Positions 1-6,075 of a stretch of 43,906 bases of DNA are shown piece after piece. Origin of the DNA: Aerococcaceae bacterium (GTDB lineage Bacteria > Bacillota > Bacilli > Lactobacillales > Aerococcaceae); contig JAUNEB010000008.1 of NCBI GenBank assembly GCA_030525795.1, positions 1-43,906 of the forward strand, in the 5' to 3' direction. Within the stretch, counting starts at the first letter, position 1, and each line of letters begins with the position of its first letter. The notes under the pieces are model-generated. The model saw nothing but the letters and a program-made list of their open reading frames with translations. It ran no database searches and was not told the origin of the DNA. The position numbers were made by a program, and so were the translations under genes.

Positions 1-355
1 ACAGGTCATCGCTCATCAAGACCCAAGGATTGGTGTCATCATCAAAGGCAATGCCTTGTCCATCTTGATAGTGATAGAGTCGAGATAAAATCGCAGAGCC
101 ACGCTCCTTAATGAGCTCAACTTTCAGGGTCAACTGATAATCTTCTACTGGTGTCAACATCTTTTCTTCTCCTACAATTTCCACATAAGATACATTAAAT
201 TTTTGACAAATACGGTCAAGCAATTCTGTCGAAATAGAGCTAGTACCATTCTCATAGCGACTTAGGCTATTTCGTGAAATACCAACAATATCCGCAAATT
301 CTGGTTGAGTTAAATTATTTGTCTTTCGTAATGTTTTTAGGTTTTGTCCAATCAT
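1..355 (-). CDS. XRE-family helix-turn-helix regulator, partial (C-terminus outside window)
   Basis: Reading leftward from an ATG at 355, about 118 residues are visible before the window ends. The N-terminus begins MIGQNLKTLRKTNNLTQ and continues through EFADIVGISRNSLSRYENG, the classic Cro/cI helix-turn-helix (residues about 5-60). The region after it (from about residue 65, MLTPVEDYQLTLKVELIKER) is a C-terminal part I do not recognise as an enzyme. The start is supported by a strong AGAGGAG site 6-7 nt upstream. It is probably a DNA-binding repressor acting on its own promoter: a small palindrome lies over the predicted -35. It sits 490 bp downstream of the Abi gene on the same strand but is separated from it by a terminator, so the two are not obviously co-transcribed. 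The targets cannot be told from the sequence. Confidence 0.85.
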   Translation of the reverse strand, partial: MIGQNLKTLRKTNNLTQPEFADIVGISRNSLSRYENGTSSISTELLDRICQKFNVSYVEIVGEEKMLTPVEDYQLTLKVELIKERGSAILSRLYHYQDGQGIAFDDDTNPWVLMSDDL

Positions 356-379
356 ATAAATCTCCTCTTACTTTTCTTT

Positions 380-408
380 ATTATATCATAAAATAGAAAA
401 ACGCACCA
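380..408 (-). promoter_or_regulatory. Promoter of the XRE gene
   Basis: Minus-strand -10 TATAAT (380-385) with an upstream TGA making an extended -10. The 17-nt spaced -35 position (403-408) reads TGGTGC, a poor match, so the extended -10 probably carries the promoter. The -35 position lies inside the palindrome at 404-417. Confidence 0.6.
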
Positions 409-417
409 TTTTTGGTG
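404..417. promoter_or_regulatory. Candidate operator palindrome CACCA-TTTT-TGGTG
   Basis: CACCA (404-408) and TGGTG (413-417) form a perfect inverted repeat over the -35 region of the XRE gene. Placement fits autorepression by the XRE protein. A hairpin role on the plus strand is possible too, since T residues follow it, but no plus-strand gene ends here. Confidence 0.4.
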
Positions 418-750
418 TTTTTTTGAAATGATATTCTGATCTTTTTTGAATTGTTAGACATTCTATTCCGCACTGCATGCAAAAATTAGGTTTCAGGATT
501 GTTATTTTTCCACCGAACTCTATTTTTAGAAAATGACTGCGGCTCGCAAAACAAAAAAACGAATCTCTGATTGATTATCCTTTTCTCATGGACAAACTAT
601 AATGTGAAAATTACTATTCTTTGATTGTCTTTTTTACTATATGTTAAACTTAATTTGTTTTTGACTTTGACAATTATATTGATACTTTTAAACCACAGAA
701 AGACTTCACTTTCATTGAAGGAAGCAAGATAGCTAATCTTTCCGCATTAA
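418..750. other. AT-rich gap without a recognisable gene
   Basis: This stretch separates the XRE gene from the Abi/ncRNA unit. I see no open frame with a ribosome binding site and no convincing promoter. A few short inverted repeats such as CTTCA...TGAAG around 701-720 are present but weak. Confidence 0.5.
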
Positions 751-782
751 ACAAAAAATAGGACCCCGTCGTAACGTGGTCC
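751..782 (-). terminator. Intrinsic terminator (3' hairpin of the putative ncRNA)
   Basis: Minus-strand hairpin 782-774/769-761, 8 of 9 pairs with a 4-nt loop, followed by TATTTTTTG. It would also end read-through from the Abi gene. Confidence 0.8.
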
Positions 783-813
783 CGTCAAAAATTGTCTCCA
801 ATTTTTAGTTGAT
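753..813 (-). ncRNA. Putative small structured RNA next to the Abi gene
   Basis: Transcription from the promoter at 820-848 should start near A813 and stop in six U residues at 753-758, giving an RNA of about 60 nt with no open frame and no ribosome binding site. It folds into two hairpins. The first pairs AAAAATTG (799-806) with CAATTTTT (787-794) around a GAGA tetraloop of the GNRA class. The second pairs GGACCACGT (774-782) with ACGGGGTCC (761-769) with one mismatch around a UACG tetraloop of the UNCG class. It lies directly downstream of the HEPN-type Abi gene on the same strand. I recall published work describing AbiF-type HEPN proteins partnered with an adjacent antitoxin-like RNA; that this is such an RNA is inference. 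The alternative is a composite terminator of the Abi gene with a fortuitous promoter. Confidence 0.6.
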
Positions 814-819
814 GAAATT

Positions 820-848
820 ATTCTACCATTGCTATATCACCTTGTCAA
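820..848 (-). promoter_or_regulatory. Strong promoter for the putative ncRNA
   Basis: Perfect -35 TTGACA (843-848), exactly 17-nt spacer, -10 TAGAAT (820-825, 5 of 6). The TGA stop codon of the Abi gene (845-847) is part of the -35 hexamer, so the promoter begins where the protein ends. Confidence 0.75.
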
Positions 849-1828
849 CTATTTAATTTATCTAGCATTAAAAAATTTACAATCTGCTGAACAAACTTGT
901 ATGTACTATTGATAAGAGCATTTTCTCGAAAGAATCCCGATTTTTCTGTCATCCTTGTATCTATAAATAAATTCAACTCCTGCAATCGATGCTTTCTAAC
1001 TTTTCCAGTTACAATCTTATCATAAACATAAATAAGTGCAACAAATTCTAATACAGCCCGAGAAGATAGTTTTTTCCTTCTGCTAGATTTTGTAATTCCC
1101 TCTATATTTTTTACAAAGTTAATGATGACTTGAGGTGACACAGTTGTATTAGAATTCAAATCAGATAAGATGCAATTGTTGTGAGCTGCTGCATTCCTTA
1201 AGCTGCGAACCAGATTCAAAACTTCCTTTGGAATATGAGAGTTGCCTCGATTATTGTAATAATCTAAGTAAAAGTTGATAATTGAGCCAAAACTCAACAG
1301 TTCCATTAACCCCCATACCGGACAATCATCATAATTTGTTATATGATGGTGACCATTTGGTCTCGTTTCTATCGTAAAATACTTCCAAAGGAGATTTCCT
1401 GTATGTGGAGAAGCAATTGTACTTTGGATTTTTTTAATCTCTTTGGGATACTTAGTGAAAAAGCTATGAACTAAATCATACCCATCAGTAGTAGAATCAT
1501 TTTCAATATCGCGTATAAGCTGAACACACATACTGTGTTCGATGTCAGAACACATCTTTTGAATCAAAAATCTATAGTGCATATCAAGTACACTCATTTC
1601 AACCAAATAAGAAAAATCAAGATTTATGTATTTTCCTTTTTTAAGTCCCATTTGATATTTTTGATAATTTTTACGATATGCAGCCATACGAAGGTAATTA
1701 TTAATATTGGATAAATAGTCAATTGCTATAGCTTTATCCACATAATTAAAAGTGATCCCTCTAACATCTTCCATTTCAGAAACCAATTGCGAAACAAGCT
1801 TCTTTGGTTTAGTAACTTTATTTGCCAT
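845..1828 (-). CDS. Abortive infection protein, Abi_2 (AbiD/AbiF) family, HEPN-type
   Basis: A 327-residue soluble protein. Family features visible are the N-terminal LSNINNYLRMAAYRKNYQKY block (residues 39-58), the central CPVWGLMELLSFGSIINFY block (169-187) and R211-N-A-A-A-H216, an RX4H motif as in HEPN ribonucleases. Members of this family act in phage defence by shutting down infected cells; HEPN proteins usually cut RNA, and AbiF-type proteins have been linked to the ancestry of Cas13. RNase activity here is inferred. The ATG at 1828 has an excellent AAGGAGGAT site 6 nt before it. The gene is a single cistron, followed immediately by the putative ncRNA at 753-813. Its codon use is more AT-rich than that of the flanking housekeeping genes, which fits acquisition by transfer. 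Family assignment is firm; AbiD versus AbiF is not resolved. Confidence 0.85.
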   Translation of the reverse strand: MANKVTKPKKLVSQLVSEMEDVRGITFNYVDKAIAIDYLSNINNYLRMAAYRKNYQKYQMGLKKGKYINLDFSYLVEMSVLDMHYRFLIQKMCSDIEHSMCVQLIRDIENDSTTDGYDLVHSFFTKYPKEIKKIQSTIASPHTGNLLWKYFTIETRPNGHHHITNYDDCPVWGLMELLSFGSIINFYLDYYNNRGNSHIPKEVLNLVRSLRNAAAHNNCILSDLNSNTTVSPQVIINFVKNIEGITKSSRRKKLSSRAVLEFVALIYVYDKIVTGKVRKHRLQELNLFIDTRMTEKSGFFRENALINSTYKFVQQIVNFLMLDKLNS

Positions 1829-1830
1829 TT

Positions 1831-1880
1831 ATCCTCCTTGGATTATTATATCTGTGTAAAATTATACCATAAAGGAGGAT
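1831..1880. repeat. Perfect 9-bp inverted repeat spanning the Abi promoter and RBS
   Basis: Plus-strand ATCCTCCTT (1831-1839) and AAGGAGGAT (1872-1880) are exact inverses. The first is the Abi ribosome binding site, the second lies between the predicted -35 and -10. It could be an operator or, in a longer transcript, a hairpin hiding the ribosome binding site. Chance similarity of a Shine-Dalgarno sequence is the plain alternative. Confidence 0.5.
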
Positions 1881-1890
1881 ATAAACACAA
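1861..1890 (-). promoter_or_regulatory. Promoter of the Abi gene
   Basis: Consensus -10 TATAAT (1861-1866) with TGG in front (extended -10). A weak -35 TTGTGT sits at 1885-1890 with an 18-nt spacer. The mRNA leader would be only about 25-30 nt. Confidence 0.6.
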
Positions 1891-2118
1891 TATTTTCCCA
1901 GTATCGTCACTATAACGTTTTAGCGTTACAATTGATGTAAGAAAAAAGATTGCTGTCGACTTACCAGACAAGAACAATAACCTCGAACTACGAGCCGATA
2001 CGTAAAAAAGTTTTATTTAACACAACTTCATTAGTCTTCGGATATTTTGGATGAATAACAGCCGCAAGTATTACTCGGACTTGTTAGCCAAGCGCAAAGC
2101 GACACATACCGATTAAAC
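1891..2118. other. Gap without a recognisable gene upstream of the Abi promoter
   Basis: Contains a TAACG...CGTTA inverted repeat around 1912-1927 and several short open frames without ribosome binding sites. I cannot identify a gene remnant with confidence. Confidence 0.4.
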
Positions 2119-2155
2119 AACACCGCACTCCCAGGCAAATTGGCAGTGCGGTGTT
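2119..2155 (-). terminator. Terminator hairpin after oppF
   Basis: AACACCGCACT (2119-2129) and AGTGCGGTGTT (2145-2155) form a perfect 11-bp stem. It lies 8 bp beyond the oppF stop. The minus-strand U tract is short; the plus-strand side reads GTGTTTTG, so it may work in both directions. Confidence 0.75.
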
Positions 2156-2162
2156 TTGTCTA

Positions 2163-3062
2163 TTAGTCTTTAGGTTTTAATACCCAGTGGTCTTTTTTGA
2201 CTTCGATAAATTGTTGTTTCACAGTTTGGAAATTTTTTGGGACATTGAATAATATACGCTGACGTTCGCGCTCATAGTCAGGGTCTGGTAATGGAATAGC
2301 TGACAATAAACTTTTTGTATAGTCATGCAGTGGATTGCTATAAAGTTCTTCTGAGTGTGCCAGTTCTACCATTTTGCCGTGATACATCATCCCGATACGA
2401 TCGCTAAAATACTTCACCATGGATAAGTCATGTGCAATGAACAAGTAGGTCAAGCCGCGGTCGCTTTGTAGTTTTTCTAATAAATTGATGACTTGCGCTT
2501 GGATGGATACATCCAATGCCGAAATCGGCTCATCGCACACAATGAATTGCGGTTCGACAGCCAATGCGCGCGCAATGCCGATACGTTGACGTTGTCCGCC
2601 CGAAAATTCATGCGGATAGCGACTGCCGTGCTCTTTATTCAAGCCAACGACTTCCAATAATTCGTGCACACGGTCGTCTCGTTCTTTTGTTGTCGCCGCA
2701 AGTTTATGTACTTCAATGCCTTCAGCAATAATGTCTTTCACTTTCATGCGCGGATTCAAAGAGGCGTACGGATCTTGGAAAATCATTTGCACCTCTTTAT
2801 TGAATGCTAATTTTTGGGCTTTCGTTTGGCGGTCTTTTGATGATTGTCCGTTGAATAAAATATCACCTGAAGTTGGGCGGTATAAATTCACAATCGCACG
2901 TCCAATCGTCGATTTGCCGCTCCCTGATTCTCCGACTAATCCGAATGTTTCTCCTTTATAAATTTGGAAACTTACGTCATCTACTGCTCGCATTTCGCGC
3001 GGGGTGTTCGGATGATAGTATTGTTTTAAGTGCTGAACATCAACTAACACTTCTTTTGTCAT
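2163..3062 (-). CDS. oppF: Oligopeptide/dipeptide ABC importer ATPase OppF
   Basis: A 299-residue ATPase that energises peptide uptake at the inner face of the membrane. Walker A GESGSGKST is at residues 44-52, the Q-loop reads MIFQDPYASLNP, the signature [15 protein letters not shown] and Walker B IVCDEPISALD follow, then the peptide-importer C-terminal extension with NPLHDYTKSLLSAIP. The ATG overlaps the oppD stop by 4 bp (ATGA), so translation is coupled. It is the last gene of the oppBCDF unit, followed by a hairpin. OppF rather than DppF is chosen by general resemblance; substrate cannot be told from sequence. Confidence 0.9.
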   Translation of the reverse strand: MTKEVLVDVQHLKQYYHPNTPREMRAVDDVSFQIYKGETFGLVGESGSGKSTIGRAIVNLYRPTSGDILFNGQSSKDRQTKAQKLAFNKEVQMIFQDPYASLNPRMKVKDIIAEGIEVHKLAATTKERDDRVHELLEVVGLNKEHGSRYPHEFSGGQRQRIGIARALAVEPQFIVCDEPISALDVSIQAQVINLLEKLQSDRGLTYLFIAHDLSMVKYFSDRIGMMYHGKMVELAHSEELYSNPLHDYTKSLLSAIPLPDPDYERERQRILFNVPKNFQTVKQQFIEVKKDHWVLKPKD

Positions 3063-4105
3063 GCAAGTTCCCCTTTCTGCTTGCGCTCATAATGAGCGTA
3101 ACGTTCTTGGATAAGTGGTGGCAAGGTCACTTTGGGCGCGTCTGGGTGCAAAAGCCACGTCGCCGCGTAATGCTGATCATTGACTTGAAACATTGGCGGT
3201 TGCATCTCGAAATCAATCGCTAACGCGTATGCATTGCGTGGCGCGAAGGCGTCACCTTTTGGTGGGTGTAATAAGTTGGGCGGTGTGCCAGGAATTGCGT
3301 ATAATGTACCTTTGGTTTCTAACGTTGGCATCGCACTCAATAATCCCCATGTGTACGGGTGTTGTGGATGATAATACACATCGTCTACTGGCCCAATTTC
3401 GACAAAGCGCCCCGCATACATCACCGCAACACGGTCAGCAACATTGGCGACGACACCTAAGTCATGCGTAATGAAAATAATGGCCATTCCTTTTTGACGT
3501 TGAATGTCTTGCAGTAGCTCAATGATTTGCGCTTGAACCGTCACATCCAATGCGGTCGTTGGTTCATCGGCAATCAATACTTCGGGATCTCCTGCTAAGG
3601 CAATGGCGATAACAATCCGTTGGCGTTGTCCGCCAGAAAATTGATGAGGATAGTCTTTCAAGCGGTCTTCAGGCTGTTTAATGCCAACTAGCGTGAGTAA
3701 TTCAATCGCTTCTTGTAAAGCTTCGTCGCGCTTCATGCCCCGATGTTTTTGTAATACTTCCATGAGTTGGCGTCCGATTGACAAGGTTGGATTTAATGAC
3801 GTCATTGGGTCTTGGAAAATCATCGCAATTTGCGAGCCGCGAATTTGTTGCATGTCTTTTTCGGAAGTCGTTACTAAGTCGCTATCATTGAACAAAATGC
3901 TCCCTTTTTCGATAACGGCATTTTTTCCTAGAAGGCGCATGATTGACCGCGAAGTGACGGTTTTGCCTGAACCGGATTCTCCGACAATCGCCAATGTCTC
4001 GCCCTTGTGCAAATCAAATGACACGCCGCGAATGGCTTGGACCTTACCAGCAAACGACTTGAAAGAGACTTCCAAATCACGCACAGATAAAATTACTTCT
4101 GACAT
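3059..4105 (-). CDS. oppD: Oligopeptide/dipeptide ABC importer ATPase OppD
   Basis: A 348-residue partner ATPase of OppF. Walker A GESGSGKT is at residues 43-50, followed by [11 protein letters not shown] (Q-loop), [18 protein letters not shown] (signature) and [13 protein letters not shown] (Walker B). The C-terminal [13 protein letters not shown] and RNAYA regions belong to the oligopeptide-type extension; that extension usually carries a cysteine cluster for Fe-S binding, and I do not see one here (the usual RC...C pattern reads [17 protein letters not shown]). The start ATG lies 8 bp after the oppC stop. Part of the oppBCDF operon. Confidence 0.9.
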
Positions 4106-4113
4106 CTACTCAC

Positions 4114-5133
4114 CTACTCTTTCATTTTAGGATCAAACGCGTCGCGCAGTCCATCGGCTAATAAATTAAAGGCTAACATCAATAACGAAATGACTCCTGC
4201 TGGATACCACATCAAATGCGGCAAAAAGCGGAAAGTTTTGTAACCGTCGTTAATGAGCGTTCCGAGTGATGCGTCGGGTGCAGGAATCCCAATCCCAATA
4301 AAACTTAAGAACGCTTCAAAGAAAATTGCCGCTGGCAAAGCAAACATAACTTGCACAATAATAATGCCTAACATGTTCGGCAAAATGTGTCGCAACATAA
4401 TATTGAAAGTCGATTGCCCTAGCACTTGAGCGGCCAATACGTATTCTTGTTGCTTAATGCGTAATGTTTGTGCGCGGACGACACGCGACATCGAAATCCA
4501 ACTCGTCAAGGCAATAGTAATGATAATTGAAGTCAGTCCTGGTTTTAAGACTAATAACATTAAGATAACGATGACTAAGTTTGGAATTCCGGATAAAATC
4601 TCCAGTACGCGTTGCATAAAAGTATCCATTTTGCCACCAAACCAGCCAGACGTAATTCCGTATAACACGCCAAAGACTAAGTTAATAGCTGCCGCAACAA
4701 AGGCAATCGTCAATGAAATGCGTGTTCCGTATAAAATACGCGACAGCAAATCGCGCCCCAAGGCGTCTGTACCTAAGTAATAGTAAGTTCCCGCAGGAAC
4801 GTTAGCTTGCGCATAGCGGTCAATCAATTTGCCCGCACGATTGACTGCGGATCCGTTAAACCAACTGAATTGTTCCAATCCTGGAATTTTGGGCGGTAAA
4901 TTGGCGTATTCGGGACGTTGCGCAACAGGCGAATGAGGTGCCAAAACAGGCGCAAACACCGCCAAAGCAATAAACAATAAGACAATCCATAACGCGATAA
5001 TCGCGCCTTTATTTTTTTTCAATCGGCGCCAAGAATCTTGCAAAAAGTTTAACGACGGCGCTGTAATCGCTTCGTTTAAAGCTGACGCTTGACGATTGTC
5101 TAAGCGAAACAGTGATTTATCAATTGTTTGCAT
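4114..5133 (-). CDS. oppC: Peptide ABC importer permease OppC
   Basis: A 339-residue inner-membrane permease. An N-terminal cytoplasmic tail of about 40 residues (SLNFLQDSWRRLKKNKGA, typical OppC_N) leads into the first membrane helix (ALWIVLLFIALAVFAPVLAP). The periplasmic-type loop carries YYLGTDALGRDLLSRILYGTR, and the ABC-coupling EAA loop reads EYVLAAQVLGQSTFNIMLRHILPN. Its ATG follows the oppB TAA with no gap, and its GGAGGGG site lies inside the end of oppB, so the two are translationally coupled. It pairs with OppB to form the channel. Confidence 0.92.
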   Translation of the reverse strand: MQTIDKSLFRLDNRQASALNEAITAPSLNFLQDSWRRLKKNKGAIIALWIVLLFIALAVFAPVLAPHSPVAQRPEYANLPPKIPGLEQFSWFNGSAVNRAGKLIDRYAQANVPAGTYYYLGTDALGRDLLSRILYGTRISLTIAFVAAAINLVFGVLYGITSGWFGGKMDTFMQRVLEILSGIPNLVIVILMLLVLKPGLTSIIITIALTSWISMSRVVRAQTLRIKQQEYVLAAQVLGQSTFNIMLRHILPNMLGIIIVQVMFALPAAIFFEAFLSFIGIGIPAPDASLGTLINDGYKTFRFLPHLMWYPAGVISLLMLAFNLLADGLRDAFDPKMKE

Positions 5134-6075
5134 TTATTCCCCTCCTTCTACAACACGCATTCTCGGATCAATCCATCCGTAAAGCAAATCTACTACTAAA
5201 ATAATGACCACTAAAAAAGTTGAGTACATAATCGTTACACCCATAATCGTCGCGAAGTCATTCACTAAGATTGACTTCGTAAATTGTTCACCAATCCCTG
5301 GAATCGAAAAAATATTTTCGATGACTAAAGAGCCAGTCATCAATGAAGCAGTCATTGGTCCTAAGATGGTTAGCAACGGAATAATCGCGTTGCGCAGCGC
5401 GTGTTTCGTCACAATGTAAAACGCGTCGAAGCCTTTTGCTTTCGCCAGTTCAATGTAGTCGCTATTTAGTACTTCAATCATTTCGGTTCGCACAAAACGT
5501 GCCGCGTCCGCCATTGGCGAAATCGATAATGCAATCGTCGGCAACACGGTCGACAAAAAGCCGTCGCGCCAAAAAGCAATCGGGAACCAACTTAACGTCA
5601 CCGCAAATACGAATTGCAACAACACCGCAAACACAAAGCTTGGCACCGAGCGACCGCTAATCGCCAAAACAGAAGTCAAGCTGTCTAGCCACGTATTTTG
5701 GTTAACAGCTGCAATAATGCCTAGCAACGTTCCTACAACAGTCCCTAACGCCATCGCTTGTAGTCCTAGCTGAATTGATGGGCCTGCTCGCTCAATCAAT
5801 AGTTGCGTCACGGGCGTATTATTGAATTGAAACGAAACGCCCAAGTCTCCTTTTAGCACGTTTTTCAAATAATTGAAATATTGCACATAAACGGGTTGGT
5901 TTAAGCCGTATTTTTCGTTTAACATCTCAAGCTGAACGGCGGTCAACTGATCTTCGTTGGCAAACGGTGTGCCCGGTAATAATTTCATCAAAAAAAACGT
6001 CACTGTCACAATCACAAACAACGTCAGCAACATATATCCTACACGTTTTGCGATATAACGTAAGTAACTACTCAT
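5134..6075 (-). CDS. oppB: Peptide ABC importer permease OppB
   Basis: A 313-residue permease with an N-terminal membrane anchor (YIAKRVGYMLLTLFVIVTVTF), the LLPGTPF block, and the coupling loop SDYIELAKAKGFDAFYIVTKHALRN. First gene of the operon. I place the start at the ATG at 6075: a longer frame opens at 6096, but its codons 3-5 would translate the AGGAGG ribosome binding site itself, which lies 6 nt before the chosen ATG. No substrate-binding protein gene is found upstream or downstream, which is unusual because Opp/Dpp systems need one; it is presumably elsewhere. Confidence 0.92.
   Translation of the reverse strand: MSSYLRYIAKRVGYMLLTLFVIVTVTFFLMKLLPGTPFANEDQLTAVQLEMLNEKYGLNQPVYVQYFNYLKNVLKGDLGVSFQFNNTPVTQLLIERAGPSIQLGLQAMALGTVVGTLLGIIAAVNQNTWLDSLTSVLAISGRSVPSFVFAVLLQFVFAVTLSWFPIAFWRDGFLSTVLPTIALSISPMADAARFVRTEMIEVLNSDYIELAKAKGFDAFYIVTKHALRNAIIPLLTILGPMTASLMTGSLVIENIFSIPGIGEQFTKSILVNDFATIMGVTIMYSTFLVVIILVVDLLYGWIDPRMRVVEGGE

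Follow-up and report, generated by a model that had tools for sequence, protein, structure and literature searches.

The window, the whole stretch of DNA analysed here, is one entire contig (C11; 43,906 nucleotides) of an Aerococcaceae draft genome (1.30 Mb, 77.7% complete), and close to one end it carries an Abi_2 gene followed by a predicted small structured RNA with its own promoter. We consider it likely, at about three chances in four, that the gene and the RNA form a two-component, type-III-like toxin-antitoxin unit acting in phage defence. The evidence computed here concerns the gene family, the HEPN motif, the predicted fold, promoter-like and terminator-like sequences, the conservation of RNA structure and the linkage of the RNA to Abi genes. 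Coordinates are collected in Table 1.

Table 1. Features of the Abi_2 gene and the RNA behind it, in window positions
Feature	Position	Strand	Basis
Predicted small RNA, about 61 nt	753–813	-	start near 813 inferred from the -10 box, end from the U-run; R1 match 755–815
U6 tail (terminator)	753–758	-	sequence read
Hairpin 2 (H2), near-invariant apex CGUU(A/G)CGACG; probable intrinsic terminator stem too	760–783	-	pair changes, column counts
Hairpin 1 (H1), A/U-rich stem, variable apex	786–807	-	folding, alignment, column counts
-10 box TAGAAT of the RNA promoter, spacer 17 nt, TG one base ahead	820–825	-	promoter scan
RNA promoter, -35 box TTGACA, which takes in the Abi stop codon	843–848	-	sequence read, promoter scan
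Abi_2/AbiD-F type HEPN protein (putative ribonuclease, RNase, toxin), 327 amino acids (aa)	845–1828	-	list of open reading frames (ORFs), Pfam
HEPN active-site motif R211-N-A-A-A-H216	1181–1198	-	R211, N212 and H216 invariant in 46-row alignment A3

The region 818–745 was predicted to fold at -18.4 kcal/mol (z -3.4), and none of 200 shuffled versions folded equally well. H1 consists of 9 bp closed by a GAGA loop (798–795), while H2 is made up of 6 bp, an A.G mismatch, 3 bp and a UACG loop (773–770). An earlier inspection of the letters alone (the sequence-only reading) had described two hairpins and a six-U end, and the fold bears this out. The two tetraloops that it named are present in the window, but across the 37 RNA sequences aligned here H1 does not keep its GNRA loop. 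The promoter, which it had called perfect, is indeed TTGACA-17-TAGAAT and its -35 box contains the Abi_2 stop codon, TGA, but it matches 11 of the 12 consensus letters and so falls one short; it was the best of 13 promoter-like sites listed in 1–2200.

The same two hairpins and U-run were found 3' of the Abi gene in most loci of the gene's clade. Compensatory (two-sided) changes occur at 11 of the 16 predicted pairs in the 37-sequence alignment, and at eight of the ten pairs of H2, with 95.1% of cells paired. The covariation score was 0.406 compared with 0.215 in shuffles; none of 500 shuffles reached 0.406, a figure that is not a probability as the aligned sequences are kin. Slid-alignment controls, in which relatedness is kept, gave 0.06–0.17 against 0.41, and no slid version reached the real score. 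By column counts, the H2 apex, the A-U core of stem 1 and G786 are the most conserved columns, and the H1 loop is free to vary. The structure of the RNA is under selection. R1, a covariance model of the RNA, scored 58.7 bits on the window. A leave-out model (R2), for which the window and the three other streptococcal-type sequences were set aside, was trained on 33 sequences and retained only the ten H2 pairs as its structure; it found the same stretch (755–815) with 45.4 bits (E 2e-6), the next-best window match having 13.4 bits (E 2.4). Because the leave-out model finds it at this level, the RNA is beyond chance.

With R1, the RNA was found 20–165 nt past the end of Abi homology in 45 of 50 loci, and in one further locus, L049, at 2.1 kb. 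The 50 loci, some of them near copies of each other, are those with Abi identity of at least 37% over at least 200 aa; duplicate records (L001, L003, L004), fragments (L080, L096, L100, L101), L005–L031, L034 and L035 (mostly relatives at 25–33%) and other loci below 37% were left out. Among clade loci, here meaning those with an R1 match, 38 of 45 have a promoter with at least 10 of 12 consensus letters between -60 and +90 relative to the Abi stop; dinucleotide shuffles would give 2.3, and windows drawn at random from these loci 1.2. Identical stretches entered this count a single time, and short stretches were excluded. Such a promoter is also present in 39 of 55 other Abi_2 loci (expected 3.4 and 2.3, respectively), and a promoter at the gene end therefore characterises more of the Abi_2 family than the clade alone. 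The sequence-only reading had set conservation behind homologous Abi genes as a test that could refute it, and both the promoter and the two hairpins proved to be conserved there. In L049 (4976–7161), a stop-free stretch of 541 codons separates the Abi stop from the RNA, which retains TTGACA-17-TATACT 2.1 kb on. This promoter, kept far from Abi, suggests that the RNA is a transcription unit of its own.

When R1 was run on 398 genomes sampled evenly across the phylum (E up to 1e-4), the only non-self match (G747, 65.7 bits) was directly behind an Abi homologue of 39% identity. The order-wide scan (E 0.01) matched 15 of 395 genomes, and only the five matches of at least 48 bits were accepted as real, three behind Abi genes and two solo. 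The other ten, of 30–37 bits, were taken as chance; nine lie at the start of one conserved ORF in one genus, by our reading of ABC type, and the tenth (L140) is unrelated sequence.

A number of observations weigh against the toxin-antitoxin reading. Training sequences for R1 came from 35 of the 50 loci; among the 15 others, 10 have the RNA nearby, L049 has it at 2.1 kb and four (L061, L062, L106 and L065) have no match at E 1e-3, and four of the 10 (L071, L104, L033 and L092) are near copies of training rows. R2 bears on H2, not on H1, as a paired element. The known abiF RNA family of Rfam, RF03085, was not matched in 650–950 at E up to 10. The RNA has no adjoining Abi_2 gene in G356 and G059, both from the streptococcal group (L129 1501–1558 and L130 1501–1558), although each of these genomes has a distant Abi_2 elsewhere. 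Finally, two Abi genes are broken beside an RNA and promoter that seem intact, one with an internal stop in Streptococcus sp. 121 (L073 4001–4975) and one split across two frames in S. merionis (L044 1276–2263); this is compatible with a toxin and proves nothing.

L061, L062 and L106 are clade members with a downstream RNA that has a longer first part and was missed by R1. The solo RNAs of L129 and L130, which may be remnants or stand-alone antitoxins, have the apex altered to CGGUAAGACG, and L129 retains a promoter-like TTGATA-16-TATAAT. Two exact patterns for a solo RNA gave no match in viral contigs, which shows little as the patterns were very strict, and blastn found neither the L129 RNA in phages nor the window RNA in plasmids. 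In a viral contig, two RNA copies stand in tandem behind a single Abi gene (L103, 5076–5133 and 5182–5242), and likewise in L104, while L058 has an extra RNA-like copy upstream of the Abi gene (3818–3866, 39.5 bits) beside the downstream copy.

The identification of the gene as an AbiF-type HEPN gene of the Abi_2 family, also made in the sequence-only reading, was supported. The protein matched Pfam Abi_2 with E 4.7e-19 (69.8 bits, gathering score 25.6) and PADLOC AbiD with E 1.5e-15, and the Abi_2 domain was matched at E 0.001 in all 46 aligned members, the window protein included. The other R....H string of the protein (residue 156) lacks conservation, leaving a single conserved HEPN motif. 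The predicted fold is that of AbiF, the best structure match being PbAbiF bound to its non-coding RNA (PbAbiF-AbiFr, PDB 8vz6; Foldseek E 2.9e-4), followed by Cas13d in 10 of the next 11 rows. Identity to PbAbiF is only 20%; phmmer with the single protein found no match in PDB, and the alignment profile found one at E 7.9e-7. In AbiFCd of Clostridioides difficile, R202 and H207, which have the same spacing as R211 and H216, are needed for toxicity (PMC12373285).

These relatives supply the precedent for the function of the RNA, as the sequence-only reading had pointed out. AbiFCd is toxic, requires both residues and is neutralised by direct binding of the RNA RCd22; neutralisation was lost when stems of RCd22 were broken, and retained when paired bases were swapped with pairing kept (PMC12373285). 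AbiF is reported to be a single-strand RNase held by AbiFr, and AbiF-AbiFr has been described as a type III system (PMC12737573). By analogy with these two cases, the window RNA most likely inhibits a HEPN dimer. In the window too, a conserved structured RNA is linked to a putative toxin gene, which is the arrangement of type III systems.

For transcription, RNase activity, dimerisation, binding, neutralisation, trigger and outcome, we infer the following scheme. The Abi_2 gene would encode a HEPN RNase whose active site forms on dimerisation, and the downstream gene would give the structured RNA of about 61 nt, with its two hairpins, from its own promoter, which fits a steady surplus of antitoxin. 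The RNA would bind the dimer and hold it inactive, probably contacting the protein through the conserved H2 apex and the U-G junction. Infection that stops host transcription or degrades RNA would lead to loss of the short-lived RNA first, and the freed RNase would halt the cell before the phage multiplies. H2 and the U-run would also end the abi mRNA; each toxin mRNA would then end in antitoxin sequence, and every toxin transcript would carry its own antitoxin.

The linkage and the fold would fit equally well if the RNA were instead an activator or sensor, with the Abi complex switched on by a phage factor rather than restrained by a plain labile antitoxin, and translation of AbiD1 is reportedly activated by a phage protein (PMC2661086; PMC12373285). 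We regard this as improbable, as the RNA of the studied relative AbiFCd inhibits (PMC12373285). It is very improbable that an ordinary abi terminator and a chance promoter are all that is present, with no functional small RNA. H2 and the six U residues resemble a good intrinsic terminator, though this hairpin was not listed by the terminator scan of the window region, and promoter-like sites are common locally (the 13 in 1–2200 compare with a mean of 9.9 in shuffles). However, a terminator has no need of H1 with its compensatory changes, of a near-invariant apex or of a promoter in 38 of 45 loci, and the RNA and promoter persist 2.1 kb away in L049 and without an adjoining Abi gene in L129.

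Slimmer still is the chance that the RNA is a Cas13-like guide or processed cofactor steering the HEPN RNase to a target RNA, a role that the sequence-only reading had allowed. It is unlikely because column counts over the 37 sequences revealed no sizeable variable single-stranded part and no repeat array lies near the gene, a direct-repeat scan of 1–6000 having given six two-copy families and no array. Cas13 of the type VI systems has two HEPN motifs, unlike the window protein with one conserved motif in 327 aa. Equally slim is that of a type-I-like antisense or trans-acting small RNA pairing with the abi mRNA start, for although linkage between a small RNA and a putative toxin gene would suit it, the RNA is downstream on the same strand as abi, and over 28 loci duplexes with the own abi 5' region were no stronger (mean -21.7) than those with the RNAs of other loci (-22.1).

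Judged by its sequence, the RNA of the toxin-antitoxin unit proposed here is not the published abiF motif RF03085. RF03085 is likewise a small RNA linked to Abi_2 genes but consists of one 37-nt stem with internal loops, unlike the two-hairpin window RNA. The AbiFCd-RCd22 system shares with the window an Abi_2/AbiD-F HEPN toxin with an RNxxxH motif, a linked structured RNA, a sigma-A promoter and an intrinsic terminator; RCd22, however, is upstream of abiF, co-transcribed with it and contains two RF03085 motifs (PMC12373285), whereas the window RNA is downstream, as in the 45 of 50 loci within 165 nt, and is one H1-H2 unit with its own promoter and without RF03085. No Rfam 15 family matched the window at gathering score, and nine matches in 650–950 at E up to 10 were all far below cut-offs and taken as chance. 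At gathering score, 20 homologue loci yielded four tRNAs only, and 18 clade loci three matches, none on the RNA. RF03085 had no match in the source genome at either E 0.001 or E 10; as a control, it scored 37.6 bits upstream of abiF in phage phiC2, and it was found upstream of abiF in L121. In 34 Abi-bearing genomes (E up to 10) it gave six matches, none above cut-off, the best (E 7.2e-4, 32.3 bits) being at the start of an Abi_2 gene (L111 1501–1537; possible starts 1520, 1568 and 1583), and in 16 further genomes four, one of them above cut-off (L117, 44 bits). This last match (1501–1537) lies in the genome of a Selenomonas that also carries the R1 RNA, behind the Abi gene of L066; the ORFs listed in 3 kb at the match include none that is Abi-like. 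On eight loci that have RF03085-type matches or other Abi genes, R1 scored at most 14.4 bits (E 0.46), which is not significant, and three other plasmid Abi loci and one phage Abi locus had neither RNA.

In a protein tree of 71 sequences, a fully supported branch separates the 29 R1-linked rows from two RF03085-linked rows, and the smallest supported branch holding the 29 also holds L061 and L062, which have no R1 match. Only six sequences are on the other side, five of them picked by similarity to L111, and the tree therefore leaves undecided which arrangement is older. Many homologues of 25–33% identity (e.g. L010, L016 and L017) have a different two-hairpin element at the gene end, starting GGAA, with a promoter overlapping the Abi end; this is possibly a further class of antitoxin RNA, and the 18 sequences of this type align poorly. 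Upstream of the Abi gene of an Enterococcus plasmid, a drum RNA (RF02958) was found (L125 321–418).

We propose, tentatively and at somewhat less than even odds, that a large AbiD/F branch has its own unnamed family of antitoxin RNAs, whose members share no sequence relationship with abiF RNA, lie 3' of the toxin gene and have their own promoter, with a -35 box that often falls within the toxin's final codons or its stop codon. A downstream RNA with its own promoter is not described in the available sections of PMC12373285, PMC12737573 and PMC12165695; the Cell 2025 AbiF study may describe such RNAs, which limits novelty. If the family is real, HEPN toxins would have acquired RNA antitoxins on more than one occasion, or else the RNA would have moved across the gene. 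R1 provides a search model for an RNA that has no Rfam 15 family in the searches made. AbiF is the reported ancestor of Cas13, and the recruitment of RNA partners by AbiF-type HEPN proteins therefore bears on the origin of RNA-guided CRISPR. A second class of RNA that partners the same protein fold, but from the other side of the gene and under its own promoter, offers a natural comparison. It could show which surface of the protein persists through a change of RNA, and whether exchanges of RNA partner preceded the evolution of guides.

A search of the whole window for tandem repeats gave one weak repeat of 1.9 copies at 40.9 kb. The proposed unit would work like the type III systems ToxIN (PMC5772629) and AbiQ, phage-defence systems in which an RNase is countered by an antitoxin made of RNA. 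In ToxIN and AbiQ the toxin fold is another one and the RNA is a tandem repeat.

Scans for Abi homologues yielded 66 loci in genome contigs and nine in viral contigs, together with 15 among phage records and 15 among plasmid records, and 39 of the 395 genomes of the order, counting the source genome, had a match to the protein. The closest relatives are from Streptococcus (72–78% identity), followed by Lachnospiraceae, Treponema, other Bacillota and phages at 37–51%. The two nearest genomes by Abi are both Streptococcus, which belongs to a different family of the order from the window genome, and transfer between families is therefore likely. One phage record has its Abi homologue between the portal and terminase genes. 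On the minus strand, the first 2 kb of the window contain, in order, the Abi_2 gene, the promoter and structured element (848–753), about 400 bases and a pezA-like gene (355–2). This neighbour of the Abi unit, a PezA-type antitoxin gene, is cut by the contig end and scored 232 bits against the PezA model, below its cut-off of 290.
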